DNA of 32,664 nt. It comes from Verrucomicrobiota bacterium. Lineage in GTDB: Bacteria > Verrucomicrobiota > Kiritimatiellia > RFP12 > UBA1067. This document shows positions 9,022 to 28,000 of the stretch, piece by piece. Below the pieces are notes generated by a model that saw only the letters and a program-made list of their open reading frames with translations, had not been told where the DNA came from and did no database searches. Where the stretch lies: the NCBI GenBank assembly GCA_022704125.1, contig JAKJHA010000003.1, positions 1-32,664 of the forward strand. The letters run 5' to 3'. Position numbers and translations under genes: made by a program. How positions within the stretch are numbered: the first letter of the stretch is position 1; each line of letters begins with the position of its first letter.

Positions 9022-9207
9022 TTACTGCTTCTCCGCCTTTTGCAGGCGGATTCCCATTTTCCGAAGCTTCCGCTCCAGTTCCTTCCCCGGCGCACGTTCG
9101 CCGGAAAGCACCCGCGACAGGTGCCCCTGCGAGACACCGCACTTCCGCGCCGCCTCCGTGACGCCCCGGTAAAGCGTGACCGGCTTGATCGTCACCGCGT
9201 CTTTCAT
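9022..9207 (-). CDS. Small HTH regulator (Cro-like)
   Basis: 61 residues. A helix-turn-helix is plain: VTEAARKCGVSQGHLSRVLS (about 16-35), followed by a basic C-terminus (GKELERKLRKMG). Size, position as the first gene of the leftward operon and divergence from the CI-like gene fit a Cro-type or AlpA-like switch protein. ATG 9205-9207 is preceded by AAAGGAG with a 6-nt spacer. It probably binds in the shared 114-bp intergenic region, where a dyad (9223-9244) and two 15-bp repeats are present. Which of these it binds cannot be told from sequence. Confidence 0.8.
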   Translation of the reverse strand: MKDAVTIKPVTLYRGVTEAARKCGVSQGHLSRVLSGERAPGKELERKLRKMGIRLQKAEKQ

Positions 9208-9321: not shown

Positions 9322-9693
9322 ATGAAAAATTTTCCCATGCGTATCAAAAAGCTTCGCGGAGACCTTACTTTGCAGGCTTTTTCCAACAAAATCGGCATAA
9401 ATCTCAAAACGTACCAGCATTACGAAGCTGGCACACGAAAACCGAGCGTTGCTGCAATTCTCCAAATTGCGGCAGCATGTGGAGTTTCCGCCGACTGGCT
9501 TCTCGGCCTGTCCGGTGATCCCGCCGCGCCCGCGCCGACAACCGCCGGTCCTGTGTCCGCCGTTCACGGCGGGGCCTGCGCCGCCTGCGCCGTGAAAGAC
9601 GCCCGCATCGACAAGCTTCTCGCCATCATCGACAAACTCGCGCAGGGGGGAAGTGCGTCTGGCTCCCCCTCTGCCCATTCAGAAACCGCATGA
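9322..9693 (+). CDS. CI-like XRE-family phage repressor
   Basis: 123 residues. Residues about 5-62 form an XRE helix-turn-helix: IKKLRGDLTLQAFSNKIGIN, TYQHYEAGTRKPS, ILQIAAACGVSADWLLG. After a Pro/Ala linker comes a short CAAC segment and a C-terminal helix (DARIDKLLAIIDKLAQGG) that could support dimer formation. There is no LexA/CI peptidase domain, so induction by RecA-type self-cleavage is not expected. GGAG sits 5 nt before the ATG. The gene diverges from the leftward operon, whose promoter carries two 15-bp repeats; a third copy lies within this gene at 9458-9472, suggesting autoregulation. Confidence 0.85.
   Translation: MKNFPMRIKKLRGDLTLQAFSNKIGINLKTYQHYEAGTRKPSVAAILQIAAACGVSADWLLGLSGDPAAPAPTTAGPVSAVHGGACAACAVKDARIDKLLAIIDKLAQGGSASGSPSAHSETA
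9458..9472 (+). promoter_or_regulatory. Third operator-like repeat, inside the repressor gene
   Basis: TTCTCCAAATTGCGG on the plus strand, opposite in orientation to copies 1 and 2 and 14 of 15 identical to copy 2. It encodes part of the HTH region (ILQIAA), so coding constraint may explain some of the match. Confidence 0.4.
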
Positions 9694-9721: not shown

Positions 9722-9991
9722 ATGGAAATTCTGGCATGGCCGTTAATCGGTGCGATCATCGGCTACATGGCATCCAACCGGCGCGGGTTCTCCCCCGTGG
9801 CCGGCATCCTTGGCGGCCTGCTGCTCGGCCCCGTCGCGCTGGCGATGTTCTTCGTGTCCGGCGTCACCCGCGGCGAGAAGAACATCAAGTGCCCCTTCTG
9901 CGCCGAGTGGATCAAGGCCGAGGCCACGGTCTGCAAGCACTGCCGCAGCCAAATCCCCGCCGGGAACAAAAACAAAAGGAGATCCCCATGA
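9722..9991 (+). CDS. Two-TM membrane protein with C-terminal zinc ribbon
   Basis: 89 residues. Two hydrophobic segments (about 3-17 and 24-46, the second Gly/Leu-rich: VAGILGGLLLGPVALAMFFV) are followed by a zinc ribbon with CPFC at 57-60 and CKHC at 71-74, then a basic tail. The small two-helix hairpin plus double zinc knuckle resembles short bacterial membrane proteins of unknown role. ATG 9722-9724 follows AGAAAGGA. The stop overlaps the next ATG as ATGA, so the two products are made together. Its place beside the repressor in the immunity region suggests a lysogenic-conversion or exclusion function, by inference only. Confidence 0.75.
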   Translation: MEILAWPLIGAIIGYMASNRRGFSPVAGILGGLLLGPVALAMFFVSGVTRGEKNIKCPFCAEWIKAEATVCKHCRSQIPAGNKNKRRSP

Positions 9992-10824
9992 AGGTACCCA
10001 AAAAAGCGCAAGACCGCATGTCTGCGGCCGTGCCGAAGTTCCAGAAGGTTCTGGCTCTTGCAAAGGACCGCGATCTTAACGAATCCGACACGGTGGCGAT
10101 CATCACCGACATGCTGGCCGAAGTTTTCGGCTATGAGAAATACCTCGAAATCACCAGCGAGCTGGCCATCCGCGGGACGTACTGCGATTTGGCCGTGAAG
10201 CTCGGCGACAGGTTCGAGCTGCTTGTCGAATGCAAAGCCATCGGCACGGAGCTCAAAGACACGCACCTGCGGCAAGCTGTAGGTTATGGCGCGAACAAAG
10301 GAATCAAATGGATCGCGCTGACAAACGGGGTTGACTGGCAACTGTACCGCATGCGTTTCGAGCAGCCCATCGCATGGGACTTGGTTGATCGGTTCGACAT
10401 GCTCGACGGCAGTGTCAAGGATCAACGGTTTATTGATTCGCTCTACCTCATGTCACGCGAAGGCGTGGAAAAGAATGCTCGCGAAGAAGTGTTTGAAAAA
10501 ATCCAGTGCGTCAACCGGTTCGTGATCGGCAACATCCTGCTGTCCGAACCCGTGGTTTCGACTGTCCGCCGCGAACTCCGCAGGCTAGCCTCTGGCATAA
10601 AAATCGAAGACGAAGAGATCGCCGCGCTTATCCGCGAGAGTGTCCTCCGGCGCGACCTTGTGGAAGGCGAAGACGCCGCCGCCGCATGCGCCAAGGTGCA
10701 GAAGCTCTACAAATCCGCCGCCGTTAGCAAGCCCAAGCAGCCAAGGCCGGCTGAACCTCAAACGACTGAATCCGCACCGCCACCGGACGAGACGGCATCC
10801 CCCGAGACCTGCGAGGAAACGTGA
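9988..10824 (+). CDS. HsdR-N-terminal-like PD-(D/E)XK nuclease, stand-alone
   Basis: 278 residues from ATG 9988-9990, which has AAGGAGA upstream and overlaps the previous gene; the longer open frame to 9736 is out of frame with that gene and is spurious. Residues about 30-125 match the Type I restriction R-protein N-terminal fold: VFGYEKYLEITSEL, Asp67 in YCDLAVK, Glu81-x-Lys83 in LVECKAIG, then HLRQAVGYGANKGIKWIALT and NGVDWQLYR. Catalytic D, E and K are all present. There is no helicase domain, so this is not a complete restriction subunit. Residues about 150-240 are helical and the tail is Pro/Glu-rich. A phage-borne defence nuclease or repair enzyme is plausible. A terminator follows at 10849. 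Confidence 0.82.
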   Translation: MKVPKKAQDRMSAAVPKFQKVLALAKDRDLNESDTVAIITDMLAEVFGYEKYLEITSELAIRGTYCDLAVKLGDRFELLVECKAIGTELKDTHLRQAVGYGANKGIKWIALTNGVDWQLYRMRFEQPIAWDLVDRFDMLDGSVKDQRFIDSLYLMSREGVEKNAREEVFEKIQCVNRFVIGNILLSEPVVSTVRRELRRLASGIKIEDEEIAALIRESVLRRDLVEGEDAAAACAKVQKLYKSAAVSKPKQPRPAEPQTTESAPPPDETASPETCEET

Positions 10825-10848: not shown

Positions 10849-10873
10849 GCGCAGGACGCGTCCGCGCCTTTTT
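10849..10873 (+). terminator. Terminator after the HsdR-N-like gene
   Basis: GCGC, one bulged A and GGA pair with TCC and GCGC around a CGCG loop, followed by CTTTTTA. It ends the repressor, membrane protein and nuclease transcript. Confidence 0.65.
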
Positions 10874-10933: not shown

Positions 10934-11024
10934 GAGCGGCAGAAATGTAGCCGTCCAGATCGGCTGGCACCGGCTGGGCACAAAAAAGGCCGACCCGAAG
11001 GCCGGCCGGAAAGGAAAAGACACA

Positions 11025-11249
11025 ATGCAACGATACAAGAACCTCGGCGGCGATTCTGGAATCGACGCTTACGAGATCGCTCCGGGCTCGATCACCGTGA
11101 GATTCAGCGATGGCAAAAACTACCGCTACACAGATGCCAGCGCAGGGGCTGACAGCGTTAGGCGTATGCAGGAACTTGCCGACTCCGGTCAGGGGCTGAA
11201 CGAGTTTATCAACCGTGTCGTCAAAAAGAACTACGCTGAGAAGTGGTAG
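11025..11249 (+). CDS. Small KTSC-like domain protein
   Basis: 74 residues. It follows the KTSC-type pattern of a short beta sheet and a terminal basic helix: GIDAYEIAPGSITVRFSDGK, YRYTDASAG, then LNEFINRVVKKNYAEKW. Such proteins are common in phages and plasmids, and their role is unknown, possibly nucleic-acid binding. ATG 11025 has AAGGAAAAG about 7 nt upstream; a longer GTG-started version (from 10896) has no proper ribosome spacing. It converges with the minus-strand gene that ends at 11259. Confidence 0.75.
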   Translation: MQRYKNLGGDSGIDAYEIAPGSITVRFSDGKNYRYTDASAGADSVRRMQELADSGQGLNEFINRVVKKNYAEKW

Positions 11250-11537: not shown

Positions 11538-11693
11538 AGGGGAAGAATATCAAAGTTCTTCCCCTAGTACTCTCTCTTGTAGAGAGTACCGCGCGCGCGT
11601 TGCCCACCAAAAAACCACTGGGCAACGCGCGCGCGATGCCCAGTCTCAAAATGCTGGGCATGCCCAGTGTTTTTGAGTGGGCATGCCCAGTGT
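11538..11693. repeat. Dense field of tandem perfect dyads upstream of the recombinase
   Basis: Four neighbouring perfect hairpins: AGGGGAAGAA with TTCTTCCCCT (11538-11565); GTACTCTCT with AGAGAGTAC (11567-11589); CGCGCGCGCGTTGCCCA with its 17-bp complement (11590-11635, loop 12 nt); ATGCCCAG with CTGGGCAT (11636-11661). Two palindromes TGGGCATGCCCA follow at 11655-11666 and 11678-11689, 23 bp apart, each within the 16-bp direct repeat TGGGCATGCCCAGTGT. The half-site TGCCCA or its complement occurs seven times. Candidate roles are regulator-binding sites, an origin, or a recombination control site. Confidence 0.85.
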
Positions 11694-11745
11694 CGAGGAA
11701 TCGGCTTGTGAGTGTGCAATTTTGGCACAGAATGAGGGGGAAAAT

Positions 11746-13212
11746 GTGAAGGAAAATACCTCAAAAAAGGCGGTGATCTACACGCGCGTAAGCTCGGAAG
11801 CGCAGGTTGACGGCACATCCCTCGACACCCAGGCCGAGGCCTGCCGCGCCTGCGCCGCCCGCCTTGGCCTGGCCGTGATCTCCGAGCATGAGGACGCCGG
11901 AAAATCAGCAAAATCCACCGTCGGCCGTGACGCCCTCGCTGCGGCCGTGGACGCCGCGATCACGGCGAGGGCGGCGCTGATCGTGTACAAATTTGATCGC
12001 CTCTCCCGCAACCTCGGTGACGGCTACGACCTGCGCGACATGCTGCTCGCCAAGGGCTGCCGGATCATCTCTGCCACCGAAGGCGAGGCCTCGGCGTCGC
12101 CGGTTTCCAAGGCGCTTTACGCGATGATGATGGCATTTTCTGAGCTCGATAACGACATGCGCGCCGAACGATGCCGAACTGGCATGTGCGCCCGCGCAAA
12201 AGCCGGTTTCTGGCTGTCGAACCCACCGGTCGGTTTTAAGTTGGGGAAGCACCCGTCCGGTGGCACGATCCTTGTCCCGGACGGCGACCAGTCGGTGATC
12301 CTGCGCAACGCGTTTCTGGATTTCATTTCCGGGCGCATCGACAAATCCGGCCTAATCAAGCGGCTCAAAGACGCCGGCCACCCCGGCAGCACCATCGACA
12401 GAATCATCCGTTCGCCGGTCTACGGGGGTATCGTCAGGAACCGGCTGACAAACGGCGAGGACGTGCCCGCCGCGTTCCCCGGCCTGATCACCGCCGATCA
12501 ATTCTACGTCATGGAGGCCAAATTGAAACTGAAGAAGCGCGTCCAGCTCAAAGACAACCCCGCGTTCCCCTACACGGGAATCATTCACTGCTCGGTCTGC
12601 GGGCAGCCGGTGCGTTCCGGATTCTCGAAATCCAAAGGCAAATCATTCGGCTACTACTTCTGCAAAGAGGCCAAGCACCCCTCGGCGCGGCGCGACGACA
12701 TCCACGCCCAGATCGAGGCCATGCTGTCCGACCTCGGCAAGATCGCATCATTTCTGGAGCTCTTGAAGGGAGCCGTGAACGACCTTGATCTGCAAGATCC
12801 GGATCGTGCGGAGCGTACCCGTCGGCAGCGCGCCGTATCGCGGATTGAACCGCAGCTTGCCCGGCTGCGCAGCGCACTGCTGGAGGGTGTGTTTTCGGCC
12901 GAAGAGTACGCCGCCGAAAAAGACCGGTTGACCACCGAACTGGCCGAACACCGCATCTGGCTGGAGTCCCACGACGCTTCGGCCGACCACCGTTCCGAGT
13001 GCATCGACATCCTGATCGGCGTGTTTACAAATCCAGCCGAGCTGATCGAGGGGCTCACGGTCGCCCAAACCAAGGGTCTGGTGCGTATCGTTTTCGGCAA
13101 ACTTACGCTCACCCCCGAAAAAAAGATTGAACCCGCGTCCGACTCGGTATACACGATACTTACGTCTGCAAACGCGGGTTCTTTTTCAGATGGTGCGCCT
13201 GGCGGGGATTGA
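11746..13212 (+). CDS. int: Large serine recombinase (phage integrase)
   Basis: 488 residues from GTG 11746-11748, chosen because GAGGGGG lies 5 nt upstream; an ATG at 11677 would start inside the dyad field. The N-terminal resolvase domain has YTRVSS with catalytic Ser16 and DRLSRN at about 84-89. The recombinase domain follows (about 150-265), then a zinc ribbon beginning CSVCGQPVR near 282 with FCKEAKHPSARR, a coiled coil (about 360-410) and a C-terminal helical region. The last residues (SFSDGAPGGD) and the TGA are encoded within and next to tRNA-Arg. This enzyme would integrate and excise the element through att sites; no excisionase is identified. Confidence 0.93.
   Translation: MKENTSKKAVIYTRVSSEAQVDGTSLDTQAEACRACAARLGLAVISEHEDAGKSAKSTVGRDALAAAVDAAITARAALIVYKFDRLSRNLGDGYDLRDMLLAKGCRIISATEGEASASPVSKALYAMMMAFSELDNDMRAERCRTGMCARAKAGFWLSNPPVGFKLGKHPSGGTILVPDGDQSVILRNAFLDFISGRIDKSGLIKRLKDAGHPGSTIDRIIRSPVYGGIVRNRLTNGEDVPAAFPGLITADQFYVMEAKLKLKKRVQLKDNPAFPYTGIIHCSVCGQPVRSGFSKSKGKSFGYYFCKEAKHPSARRDDIHAQIEAMLSDLGKIASFLELLKGAVNDLDLQDPDRAERTRRQRAVSRIEPQLARLRSALLEGVFSAEEYAAEKDRLTTELAEHRIWLESHDASADHRSECIDILIGVFTNPAELIEGLTVAQTKGLVRIVFGKLTLTPEKKIEPASDSVYTILTSANAGSFSDGAPGGD
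13129..13186. terminator. Bidirectional terminator-like hairpin at the element/tRNA border
   Basis: GAACCCGCGT (13129-13138) and ACGCGGGTTC (13172-13181) are a perfect 10-bp inverted repeat with a 33-nt loop. On the plus strand TTTTT follows at once, still inside the recombinase frame. On the minus strand, after AATC, a run of eight T follows, which suits the end of the tRNA transcript. Confidence 0.5.
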
Positions 13213-13267
13213 ACCCACAACCTTTGGCTTCGGAGGCCAACACTCTATCCAATTGAGCTACAGGCGC
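13191..13267 (-). tRNA. tRNA-Arg (anticodon CCG)
   Basis: The minus strand folds into a full cloverleaf: acceptor GCGCCTG/CAGGCGC, D stem GCTC/GAGT, anticodon stem TTGGC/GCCAA around loop CTCCGAA (anticodon CCG), T stem GTGGG/CCCGC with loop TTCAATC, discriminator A and an encoded CCA. The 77 nt include CCA. Its 3' end faces the element, and the recombinase stop codon TGA (13210-13212) lies in the T-loop region, so the tRNA 3' half is probably the attachment site and has been kept intact. Confidence 0.96.
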
Positions 13268-23975: not shown

Positions 23976-24917
23976 TTAACACAAAGCCGTTGTGTCGATG
24001 CGCATGCGTCGGCCGCGGAGTTGTAGGTTACCGCCAGTGATGATGACCTTCTCGTCCTCGCGCCGCAGGTCGAGCGGCTCACGCGCCCAGACTGCCCAGC
24101 CGCGTGCGGCGGCCCGTGCGTACAACTGCTCCAGCGTGTCGGCAAAGCGCTCCTGTCCACGCCAGAACGGCAACGGGCCAAGGCGGTAGATGAGCGGCGC
24201 GGGCGTGAGCGTTTTCACGGCGCTACCAAAATCTTCAAAGGGCGGCTGCGGCGTTCCGTAGAACGTTGTGAGATCGACAGGATCGGGTGCGGGCGACAGT
24301 ACCGGGCCGACTGACGGCGGCTCTTCCATCGCCGCATCGCCCAGCAACTCGACGCGGCTGACACCACGGACAGCCAGCAACAGCAGCGGGGTTTGGGTGA
24401 TGGCCTCGCCCATCAAATAGTAGACCGCCGCCAGATGCTTGCAGGGGTTGGCGTAATCCGGACAGGAACAGCGGCTCGACAGATCATTCTCGCGCTGCGG
24501 AAAGAGCGGACAACCGGCCTCCCGGAAGAGCCCCTCCACCTCAAGCGGCAGCTCGCCGACCAACAGGCGCGCCACCAGCATCGGCTGGGCGCGCAGGGTC
24601 TCGATCAACTGCGGCTGCGCCTCTTCCGACACCGTGCGGAAGTGGATGGTGCTGGTGTAGGGCTCCTTGCTGGCGCCCTGCACACGGGCGGTGATCACGC
24701 CCGGCGTGATCTCAAGTTGCGACACCTGGCCGGAGACTGCATAGCTACGGCCGCGTCCCAGACGCGCCCCAATGCGGAAGCGTTCGATGGCCTCGATCCA
24801 GCGTCGGCTCCACCACACGCGCGACGTTCCACTTTGCGCATGTTGCGAACGGATACCGCCCATGATTGCCATCGGCGTACGCGGCGCGTACCGCTTTTTT
24901 CGCTTTTTCTTGCTCAT
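23976..24917 (-). CDS. SWIM zinc-finger protein
   Basis: 313 residues. A very basic N-terminus (MSKKKRKKRYAPRTP) is followed by WWSRRWIEAIERFRIGARLGRGRSY, the usual front of bacterial SWIM proteins paired with SNF2 helicases. The SWIM motif is CSCPDYANPCKHLAAVYY, with ligands Cys150, Cys152, Cys159 and His161 (CxC...CxH). Its ATG overlaps the SNF2 stop as ATGA, so the two proteins are translationally coupled and likely form a complex on nucleic acid. Role in DNA repair or transcription is inferred. Confidence 0.92.
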   Translation of the reverse strand: MSKKKRKKRYAPRTPMAIMGGIRSQHAQSGTSRVWWSRRWIEAIERFRIGARLGRGRSYAVSGQVSQLEITPGVITARVQGASKEPYTSTIHFRTVSEEAQPQLIETLRAQPMLVARLLVGELPLEVEGLFREAGCPLFPQRENDLSSRCSCPDYANPCKHLAAVYYLMGEAITQTPLLLLAVRGVSRVELLGDAAMEEPPSVGPVLSPAPDPVDLTTFYGTPQPPFEDFGSAVKTLTPAPLIYRLGPLPFWRGQERFADTLEQLYARAAARGWAVWAREPLDLRREDEKVIITGGNLQLRGRRMRIDTTALC

Positions 24918-27900
24918 CCCTCCACCTCGATATCGGCAATAACCGTTTCGGAAAGCCGCAGAACCTGATCCAGTTCGGCGTCGGAAAGTTCAGTTAGGAA
25001 CTGCTCGCCACTCGTCACGATCTCGGCGGCCAAGGCGCTCTTGTGCGCGATCATATCGTCGATGCGTTCCTCCAGCGTACCGCCGCAGAGAAATTTATGG
25101 ACCATCACATCGCGCGTCTGTCCGATACGGAAGGCGCGGTCAGTGGCCTGATTCTCAACGGCGGGATTCCACCAGCGGTCGTAGTGAAAGACATGGCTCG
25201 CGCGAGTCAGGTTGAGACCGATGCCGCCGGCTTTGAGCGAAAGGACAAAGGCACGCGGTTCGACGCTCTCCTGAAACGCTCGCACCATGTTGTCGCGCGT
25301 CTTGCGCGGCACGCCGCCATGCAAAAACGGCATGTCGCGCCCAAACGTTTCGCAGAGACGTTGTTGCAGTAGCGCGCCCATCTCGGCGTACTGGGTGAAG
25401 ACCAGTGCGCTCTCGCCGCGCGCGAAAATCTCCTCCAGCATCTCTTCCAGACGTTGTAGCTTGCCGGACGGACGCGCCATGGCCTGCGGCTCGCCGAGGT
25501 AGTGCGCCGGATGGTTGCAGACCTGTTTGAGGCGGGTCAGCACACCGAGAATCAAGCCGCGTCGCGCGATACCTTCGGCGTCGGCCGCATCGCGACGAAA
25601 CTGCTCAAGCACTTCCTCGTAAAGATGCGCCTGCTCGCGCGTGAGCGTGCAGATGACGGTGCCTTCGCGCTTCTCTGGTAGATCGGCGATGATCTGTTTG
25701 TCGGTCTTGAGACGCCGCAGCAAAAACGGCGAGGTAATGCGCCGCAGCCGCGTGCGCGCGCCGGGATCGGTGCCAGAGTGGATCGGTCGGAAGAAGGTTT
25801 CGCGGAACGCGGTACGTCCGCCTAGCAGACCGGGATTGAGAAAATCCATCAACGACCAGAGGTCGCCGACGTGGTTCTCGATCGGTGTACCGGTCAGCGC
25901 GATCCGGTAATCGGCCTGTAGCGCGCGCGCCGCTTGGGCTTGGCGCGTATCAGGATTCTTGATGTTCTGCGCTTCGTCGAGCACGATGCCGGACCAGTTG
26001 ATTTTACGCAAGTCGGAGTAATCGCGGTAGAGCAGATGGTAACTGGTGAGCACGATGTCCACCCCTTTTGTCTCACGGACAAACGCATTGCCGTGACCGC
26101 GCCGTGCACCGTGATGGAGCATCACGCGCAGACTGGGCGCGAAGCGTCGACTCTCACGCAACCAGTTGCCGAGCACTGACATCGGAGCGACCAGCAAAAC
26201 CGGACGGCGCTCGCCACGCTCCTTTTCGTGCAGCAGAAAGGCGAGCGTCTGGATCGTTTTACCAAGGCCCATGTCATCCGCCAGACAGCCGCCGAAGCCC
26301 CAGGTGCGCAGGAACGCCAGCCAACTGAACCCGCGCACCTGATAGAGACGCAACTCGCCGCAAAACGTAGCGGGTTGCGGCAGCAGTTCGAACGTCTGCT
26401 CGCCGCGCAAGCGATTGAGGAACGGCGCCAGCCAACCGCCGCCACGAACCTCGGAGACCTCCAGCCCGCCACGGCTTGCGGTGCCTAGCGCCAACTGTAC
26501 CACCTCCAGCGCGGATTGCGATTCCGCCCGCTTGGGTTGCGTAACGCGCAGCGCTTCCTGAAGCTGGCGCACATCGATCTGAATCCAGCGGCCCCGGAAG
26601 AAGACCAACGGCGAGTCGGACTCCAACAGCGCCTCCAGCTCCTCGCGCGAAATCGGCTGGCCGTCCAGCGCGACCGTCCAACTCAGCGCCACCTTCTCTT
26701 CCAGTGCCTGCGGGCTGGCGTCCGCGTCGGCGTGCGGCATCGCATCAACCTCCAGCGTGACGGTTTGCTCACGGTGGCTCCACCATGCCGGTAGACCGAC
26801 GCCGTAACCAGCCGCTTCCAGCAGCGGTGCGGCAGTGTTGAGAAAGACATGTGCCTCATCAGGTGGTAGCATGCAACCAAAGCCGTGCGGATAGATTTCG
26901 GCTCTGGTCAGCGGTGGGAAGAGCATGCCGGCCTGTCCCAGCGCGATCAAGAGCGCTTCATCAGCACCCTCAAAAAACGGTGTACGGCCTTTCGGGCGCG
27001 TGCCGTTAAAGCGCACACGCAGGAACCACGGCTGACTCGGCTCGGACGGCTCTTCCAGTTCGAAGAGCAGGGCGGCGTCATGCGCCGCGCGGCCTTCGAC
27101 CGGTCGCCGCCACAGAGCGACCGCGTCATGCAGAGCGTCAAGTTCTTCGTCGGCTTCCCAGCGAATCACCGGACTCTCACCGCGCAATGCGGCGAACCAA
27201 GCGTCGTGGGCGCTGTAGAACTTGCCGCGTTCGGCATGTGAGCGCGAAAGCGTCGTCATCACGCTGAACCGCACCAAGTGGTCGGTCAGCTCCTCAAGCA
27301 GCGCGGCGGCATGGTGTTCGGGTGTCGTACCCAGCGTCAGCAACGGCGGCAGACGCGCAGCCAGCGCTTCGAGCCGCCGCCGGTCGGGCGGATCGAGCGA
27401 CGCCTGCCAGCGCGCCTCGACGCTTCCGTCGTCGCGCCGCACAAGCGCGGGCAAAAATCTGCCGCGGGCCACGAGCGAACCGGCAAAGCGGAAGAGATCG
27501 ACGAATGCGAGCAGATCTTCGCCGGCGAACACGCCATCGGCCAGCCGCCGCTCCTGACAGACTCCCAGAAAAGTAAGAGCCTGTTTCCAAGTTAAAGTGG
27601 CGGCCGTGACCCGCCAAGTATCAAGCGTCACCGGCGGCGGAGCGGAGACATCGGCAGGCAAGAGGAACGATTGTGACGGCATCGGAAGCGGACCGACAGA
27701 ACTTTGGCCCGTCGGCAGGCGCAACTCCAGATCCGCCATTTGAAGACTTTCGGTTTCCCAAAGGAATCGCTCAAGGAGGTCGCCAAGGATTTCTGCTCCG
27801 GCATCAAACGGCGATACACGCACCTGCGCCGCATCCTGCGCTGTGGGATGAGTTCCACATGCGGGTGCAACCCGTTCGCCCCACACAGCCACAACGCACT

Positions 27901-27931
27901 GGCGCCAGCTTATATGCAGAATCACTAACAT
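24914..27931 (-). CDS. SNF2-family DEAD-like helicase
   Basis: 1,005 residues if started at ATG 27929-27931; a GTG at 27964 would add 11. The N-terminal 500 residues are the poorly conserved bacterial SNF2-associated region. The motor starts near residue 545: GGCLADDMGLGKTIQTLAFL (Walker A), VLLVAPMSVLGNWLRE, DIVLTSYHLLYRD, DEAQNIKNP (about 648), ALTGTPIENHVGDLWSLMDF, LVFTQYAEMG, LSLKAGGIGLNL and DRAFRIGQ (about 930). All SNF2 motifs are intact. It should act as an ATP-driven DNA translocase, working with the overlapping SWIM protein. A good promoter lies at 28001-28029. Confidence 0.95.
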   Translation of the reverse strand: MLVILHISWRQCVVAVWGERVAPACGTHPTAQDAAQVRVSPFDAGAEILGDLLERFLWETESLQMADLELRLPTGQSSVGPLPMPSQSFLLPADVSAPPPVTLDTWRVTAATLTWKQALTFLGVCQERRLADGVFAGEDLLAFVDLFRFAGSLVARGRFLPALVRRDDGSVEARWQASLDPPDRRRLEALAARLPPLLTLGTTPEHHAAALLEELTDHLVRFSVMTTLSRSHAERGKFYSAHDAWFAALRGESPVIRWEADEELDALHDAVALWRRPVEGRAAHDAALLFELEEPSEPSQPWFLRVRFNGTRPKGRTPFFEGADEALLIALGQAGMLFPPLTRAEIYPHGFGCMLPPDEAHVFLNTAAPLLEAAGYGVGLPAWWSHREQTVTLEVDAMPHADADASPQALEEKVALSWTVALDGQPISREELEALLESDSPLVFFRGRWIQIDVRQLQEALRVTQPKRAESQSALEVVQLALGTASRGGLEVSEVRGGGWLAPFLNRLRGEQTFELLPQPATFCGELRLYQVRGFSWLAFLRTWGFGGCLADDMGLGKTIQTLAFLLHEKERGERRPVLLVAPMSVLGNWLRESRRFAPSLRVMLHHGARRGHGNAFVRETKGVDIVLTSYHLLYRDYSDLRKINWSGIVLDEAQNIKNPDTRQAQAARALQADYRIALTGTPIENHVGDLWSLMDFLNPGLLGGRTAFRETFFRPIHSGTDPGARTRLRRITSPFLLRRLKTDKQIIADLPEKREGTVICTLTREQAHLYEEVLEQFRRDAADAEGIARRGLILGVLTRLKQVCNHPAHYLGEPQAMARPSGKLQRLEEMLEEIFARGESALVFTQYAEMGALLQQRLCETFGRDMPFLHGGVPRKTRDNMVRAFQESVEPRAFVLSLKAGGIGLNLTRASHVFHYDRWWNPAVENQATDRAFRIGQTRDVMVHKFLCGGTLEERIDDMIAHKSALAAEIVTSGEQFLTELSDAELDQVLRLSETVIADIEVEG

Positions 27932-28000
27932 CCCATCGGCCTGTCCGGCAACATGCCGCACCACTGACGGTCATAAAGCGGTCACAGACACGTATACCAT

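Follow-up and report, generated by a model that had tools for sequence, protein, structure and literature searches.

A stand-alone nuclease of the HsdR-N type is encoded directly behind the repressor of a prophage, and it may, on our tentative reading, act against other phages, being transcribed together with the repressor and optionally tethered or gated at the membrane. The window, which is the whole stretch of 32,664 nucleotides that was analysed, carries one end of this prophage, and sugar-metabolism genes lie beyond the tRNA-Arg. The features needed here are as follows.

9022 to 9207, minus strand: small divergent HTH protein (Cro-like), facing away from the repressor (PF01381, 5.2e-5; PHROG 35 repressor, 1.5e-5)
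9322 to 9693, plus strand: repressor of 123 aa, HTH_3 / RstR-like, opening the putative lysogen-expressed operon (PF01381, 2e-10)
9722 to 9991, plus strand: 89-aa membrane protein (P0001), two hydrophobic helices followed by a zinc ribbon at the C-terminus (ORF, AF2, PHROG 8436)
9988 to 10824, plus strand: 278-aa stand-alone HsdR-N-type PD-(D/E)XK nuclease (P0002; PF13588, PHROG 17239, AF2 fold)
about 10849 to 10873, plus strand: possible, weak intrinsic terminator (bulged stem, then T5)
11025 to 11249, plus strand: 74-aa protein, encoded between the nuclease and integrase genes (PHROG 17428, 5.2e-22)
11677 to 13212, plus strand: large serine recombinase (phage integrase) at the prophage end (PF00239, 1.8e-27; PHROG 95 integrase, 1.9e-66)
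13191 to 13267, minus strand: tRNA-Arg(CCG), into which the 3' end of the integrase gene extends (ARAGORN; Rfam RF00005, 70 bits)

The order of genes thus runs from the divergent Cro-like gene through the HTH_3 repressor, the pair and the 74-aa protein to the large serine recombinase. The repressor also matched the transcriptional regulators of PHROG 8 (5.6e-15) and, at a sub-threshold 44.9 bits, the RstR family of NCBIfam. The tRNA-Arg(CCG) is likely the attachment site and the border between prophage and host. ERF and other replication and recombination genes are oriented against the repressor and the pair, and this opposite orientation makes expression of the pair in the lysogenic phase plausible. 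Expression in the lysogen direction, as given in the initial annotation, would follow from this position. Several further observations were made in the surroundings. The 74-aa protein matched no Pfam domain and resembles a part of a larger family of virion structural proteins, PHROG 24656. Just 5' of the serine recombinase, at 11590 to 11690, palindromic repeats of the form TGCCCA...TGGGCA occur in about three copies with CGCGCGCGCG runs; these are possible sites for a regulator or a recombination factor. In the host part, on the minus strand at 23976 to 27964, a SWIM zinc-finger protein adjoins an SNF2/DUF3670 helicase.

Most of the description of the pair given in the initial annotation was confirmed. 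The pair follows the HTH_3 repressor after a gap of 28 bp, and its two genes overlap by ATGA, with the ATG of the nuclease at 9988 and the TGA of P0001 at 9989 to 9991. The reading frame of the nuclease is open further upstream, to 9736; its start was placed at 9988 because both homology and an AAGGAG ribosome site 5 to 6 nt 5' of this start favour it. The AF2 model of P0001, which is of modest confidence (mean pLDDT 73), contains helices at residues 5 to 21 and 25 to 45, followed by a zinc ribbon of the form CPFC-x10-CKHC with the cysteines C57, C60, C71 and C74. Pfam gave weak, sub-threshold zinc-ribbon matches and PADLOC weak zinc-ribbon matches to other models (E<=1). P0001 matched PHROG 8436 at 1.7e-12, and in a family of 16 members the four cysteines are invariant and PHROG 8436 was matched in all 16. 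The terminator that was ascribed to the pair is a weak one: the candidate hairpin (-11.1 kcal/mol, z -1.4) was equalled by 14 of 200 shuffles and was absent from the output of the consensus terminator scan. The best hairpin near the pair, at 10988 to 11007 (z -3.3), serves the minus strand.

P0002 belongs to the stand-alone HsdR-N nucleases of PF13588 and PHROG 17239, with 26.9 bits against HSDR_N_2 (PF13588, cut-off 25) and a match of 1.5e-82 to PHROG 17239 across residues 1 to 245, which is nearly the full length. Both PHROG 17239 and PHROG 8436 are listed without an assigned function. No PADLOC or NCBIfam model matched the nuclease, and a sequence search against solved structures returned nothing meaningful. 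Relatives were gathered from 247 chromosomal and 61 viral stretches, the closest named ones being Kiritimatiellota, and clustering of the loci at 80% identity gave 114 clusters, 112 of which were scorable for active-site residues. D67, E81 and K83, which had been pointed out as retained in the window, are invariant in all 112, as is the QxxxY pair Q96/Y100; none of these columns was part of the search patterns. The conserved E32, D34 and G48 were left out of the evidence because the stretches containing them served as search patterns.

The AF2 model of the nuclease (pLDDT 91) has its closest structural matches in BpuSI (Z 12.1), DrdV (11.8) and the HsdR structure 3h1t (11.7), followed by a second HsdR (9.5) and, more weakly, by NucC (Z 7.0) and SduA (Z 6.4). 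It also contains a helical C-terminal domain (about residues 146 to 246), whose part from about 175 to 246 showed no fold relative within the whole-protein model, and a disordered tail. Since the catalytic residues are invariant and the predicted fold is that of restriction nucleases, P0002 is very probably an active nuclease. Judged by this model, it is the nuclease end of restriction enzymes minus their motor, methyltransferase and specificity parts. No helicase, HsdM or HsdS is encoded alongside.

For the analysis of gene neighbourhoods, genes in the fetched loci were called with a home-made codon-usage caller, membrane helices with a hydropathy threshold, and repressors and integrases with profiles grown within the loci. 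Absolute rates are approximate, and comparisons with the background used the same methods on both sides; many of the enrichment tests were post hoc in design. Of the 45 viral nuclease clusters, 19 have an HTH repressor in the same direction no more than 800 bp upstream, compared to 68 of 796 background genes (8.5%, p=8e-9), which makes the nuclease a typical gene of the lysogeny module. An integrase follows within 2.5 kb downstream in 16 of the 45 viral clusters and at 59 of the 796 background genes (p=3e-7). Close repressors were found at 7 of 69 chromosomal nuclease clusters. Annotated examples are the Thermus phage Riverbug, with a LexA-like regulator, the nuclease, a periplasmic-domain protein and an integrase in succession, and the Corynebacterium phage Juicebox, in which the nuclease is likewise post-repressor. 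Because the repressors in front of nuclease relatives are of many types, the nuclease appears to have been acquired repeatedly behind repressors.

In the window, the nuclease has the position of a prophage defence gene, as it lies in the lysogeny module, in the direction of the repressor and between repressor and integrase. The proposal that the gene belongs to the immunity region and has kept its nuclease site intact is supported, and the recurrence of the family behind unrelated repressors is what would be expected of prophage-encoded protection. Chromosomal copies are not clearly located in defence islands: with PADLOC at E 1e-10, 27 models with one member each were matched near these copies and 7 models far away, a contrast that is suggestive only. 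In Campylobacter, a stand-alone HsdR-N gene distinguishes a phage-resistant from a phage-sensitive strain, and its role there is unclear (PMC8713573).

The pairing of the nuclease with zinc-ribbon membrane proteins is real and repeated, yet it is not obligate. Homologues of P0001 adjoin the nuclease at loci L121, L132 and L133 as well as in the window, i.e. in four unrelated phages. At L109, L115 and L141 the adjoining membrane proteins have the reversed domain order, with the ribbon preceding the helices. Both orders of membrane gene and nuclease gene occur. Of the eight small zinc-ribbon TM genes in viral loci, six directly adjoin the nuclease on the same strand (p=1.6e-5). Compared to matched lysogeny loci, in which the zinc-ribbon membrane gene is rarer, the contrasts are post hoc and modest (4/19 vs 0/22, p=0.04; 4/19 vs 3/102, p=0.01), and the repressor controls, two narrower repressor families plus serine-integrase loci, are an imperfect match. 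On the nuclease tree, the zinc-ribbon labels require at least three separate changes. The loci L133:6151-7790 and L115:6779-8819 both consist of repressor, zinc-ribbon membrane protein and nuclease, with opposite domain order in the membrane protein; their nucleases form neighbouring branches of the tree, and the two membrane proteins look like an analogous replacement. The minus strand of L330:110-1348 encodes, beside a nuclease relative, a protein of 412 aa with multiple zinc ribbons, the last of which (CPHCSKWIEGNALECRHC) closely resembles the ribbon of P0001.

A general attraction of the nuclease to small membrane genes was considered and rejected, as such genes overall occur at the -1/+1 positions at the background rate of 0.10; enrichment was confined to zinc-ribbon TM, multi-TM and channel genes. 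Multi-TM close neighbours were found at 9 of 50 nucleases versus 52 of 1028 (p=0.0013). An obligate two-gene module was also rejected by the counts. Of the nuclease loci, 3 of 61 viral and 0 of 80 chromosomal ones have a member of the P0001 family, and 31 of 34 viral loci with this family lack the nuclease. At L012, which carries a near relative of the nuclease and a similar repressor, the nuclease stands alone, with an open frame overlapping the end of the repressor. The coupling proposed in the initial annotation, for which conserved adjacency was to be checked, is thus borne out as an enrichment in unrelated phages and not as a fixed unit, since most relatives of each protein occur without the other.

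These counts bear on the most serious of the other explanations, namely that the two genes are independent morons in a common post-repressor slot, with the nuclease acting alone and P0001 being a separate exclusion or housekeeping gene. This is possible, if somewhat doubtful. Several of the membrane-family loci without the nuclease lie directly behind repressors, as do the zinc-ribbon membrane proteins at L170, L172 and L180, where the nuclease is absent; a shared slot could therefore explain part of the pairing. The many nuclease loci without the membrane family, the solitary nuclease at L012 and the varying gene order are likewise what independent acquisition would produce. Against this stand the six of eight zinc-ribbon TM genes that adjoin the nuclease, together with their lower frequency in matched lysogeny loci, and a second kind of pairing found in chromosomes, where an effect of the phage slot is not possible.

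This second partner is an ion channel. Ion_trans (PF00520) was the commonest family in the neighbour scans of chromosomal copies, and a 6-TM channel (PF00520/PF07885), usually with the K+ filter TVGYGD, adjoins nuclease relatives in several phyla and in viral contigs, at the following loci.

L011:4427-6106: channel and nuclease, the latter 66% identical
L044:8001-9627 and L070: channel and nuclease
L015:7226-8780 and L016:7235-8798: channel and nuclease, 8-bp overlap
L019:8001-9717: channel and nuclease, 1 bp
L029:8001-9639: channel and nuclease, 22 bp
L146, L131 and L140: channel and nuclease in viral loci
L314 and L334, and L320 in convergent arrangement: channel and nuclease in the fresh sample

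The channel is a neighbour of the nuclease in 5 of 69 chromosomal clusters (binomial 5e-9) and in 3 of about 33 fresh loci (3e-6). Seven paired genomes were checked, and in each the channel family has no strong match other than the partner channel, so chance adjacency is negligible; and because the pairing occurs in chromosomes, it is not an effect of the phage slot. The channel labels require no fewer than four separate changes on the tree of nucleases, a count of lineages that is unaffected by the rows L016 and L070, which are labelled partnerless despite their channel and are sisters of labelled rows. The clade of the window's own nuclease has one member with a zinc-ribbon protein, one with a channel and one with a single-TM protein. 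Most relatives of the nuclease have neither a zinc-ribbon nor a channel partner. In four partner channels (L019:8881-9717, L029:8761-9639, L146:8635-9540 and L334:2407-3213) the cytoplasmic tail ends in CPHCG, half a zinc ribbon. This motif was not used as a link to the zinc-ribbon protein, as it may be general to the channel subfamily. In the literature, for which coverage of subscription journals and preprints was thin, no report of a defence system consisting of an ion channel and an HsdR-N nuclease was found.

The occurrence of channels as partners could also suggest that the roles are reversed, with the membrane protein as effector and the nuclease-fold protein as a sensor that opens a pore upon encountering foreign DNA intermediates. 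The model for this is lambda Rex, in which the CI-linked DNA-binding protein RexA acts with the membrane channel RexB (PMC12894663). Like lambda RexAB and Pseudomonas putida RexABpp, the pair combines a membrane gene and a DNA-acting gene downstream of a prophage repressor, and the cI-linked two-gene layout is that of rexA-rexB (PMC12894663). Nevertheless, such a reversal is improbable: all catalytic residues of the nuclease are conserved, which indicates that cutting matters, whereas RexA is described as DNA-binding only, a sensor. RexB is a larger channel, and an 89-aa protein with two helices and a zinc ribbon is unlikely to form a channel alone. The operon position is shared with RexAB, but no Rex family was among the Pfam, PHROG and NCBIfam matches.

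A role of the nuclease in the DNA metabolism of the phage, i.e. in recombination, integration or induction of the prophage and not in defence, is more improbable still. The serine integrase is only 0.85 kb from the nuclease, and many relatives are linked to integrases. However, the gene points in the direction of the repressor and opposite to ERF and the replication genes, its relatives occur with serine as well as with tyrosine integrases, and 66 of 69 chromosomal clusters have no integrase close downstream. That P0002 is a remnant or partner of a restriction-modification system with its methyltransferase elsewhere is the least credible explanation. Its closest folds are indeed those of restriction nucleases of types IIG and I, but methyltransferase motifs, in a search with limited sensitivity, were found in 0 of 165 genes within two positions of the nucleases. 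One of the fresh loci (L306:1498-3631), in which a chromosomal nuclease relative is followed by a C5-methyltransferase-like gene and preceded by a GIY-YIG-like gene, both named by eye from motifs, is the one possible restriction-modification-like setting among the loci seen.

By the features tested, P0002 and P0001 do not constitute a type I or type IIG restriction-modification system, Kiwa, Zorya, SNIPE or Rex. The nuclease shares D..E-x-K, QxxxY and the fold (Z 9.5-11.7) with the N-terminal domain of HsdR (PF13588; EcoR124I, Vibrio 3h1t). It differs from type I HsdR in lacking the helicase motor and in having, within 278 aa, its own helical C-terminal domain; no helicase domain was detected, and neither HsdM nor HsdS was found among the neighbouring ORFs examined. 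The N-terminal nuclease domains of the type IIG enzymes BpuSI and DrdV are the best structural matches, but P0002 has neither a methyltransferase nor a target recognition domain. Shedu SduA and NucC are, like P0002, stand-alone PD-(D/E)XK defence nucleases without a restriction motor; they match its structure more weakly and have different accessory domains, and no sign of a cyclic-nucleotide or DNA-end trigger was seen here.

Among the membrane-associated systems, Kiwa consists of the inner-membrane tetramer KwaA and the cytoplasmic DNA-binding partner KwaB (PMC12904381). It resembles the pair in having two genes, one for a membrane component and one for a DNA-acting partner, but KwaB does not cut DNA, whereas P0002 has a nuclease site; PADLOC gave no match for the nuclease and only the weak matches to other models for P0001. 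In Zorya and SNIPE, it is a membrane component that positions a nuclease or switches it on during phage injection (PMC12904381). The pair has no ZorAB-like motor and no family match to either system; PADLOC gave no match, and the neighbouring ORFs examined include no motor protein. Unlike in SNIPE, the nuclease and the membrane component are here two different proteins, unrelated to each other; there was no DUF4041 match, and the nuclease model contains no membrane helix. The suggestion that a membrane sensor with a nuclease effector would be a new combination was too strong, because Zorya, Kiwa and SNIPE precede it (PMC12904381), and it holds only for these particular families.

For the prophage anti-phage nuclease, the following course can be envisaged. 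As an accessory gene of the lysogeny module, the nuclease would be co-transcribed with the repressor during dormancy and would restrict incoming phage or plasmid DNA, providing defence against superinfection. With neither a methyltransferase nor a specificity subunit at its side, the nuclease must leave self-DNA untouched by other means. Most likely, the enzyme would be silent until activated, or would be restricted to the membrane site at which phage DNA comes in. P0001 could be the tether or gate in the window, and the ion channel could take that part for other relatives. This membrane step, deduced from the repeated independent pairing, is the least certain.

A broader reading, which we consider rather unlikely, is that of a nuclease family forming anti-phage systems with exchangeable membrane gates, where temperate phages use a two-helix zinc-ribbon protein and chromosomes a six-TM K+-type channel, and where the partner would sense a disturbed membrane at phage entry, or altered ion flow, and license the nuclease locally. 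If true, it would explain how self-DNA is spared without a methyltransferase. How nucleases without modification avoid their own chromosome is a question across several defence systems, for which these genes offer natural two-gene pairs. A working hypothesis is gained for PHROG 17239 and PHROG 8436, and the post-repressor slot emerges as a recurrent home of this nuclease in unrelated temperate phages.
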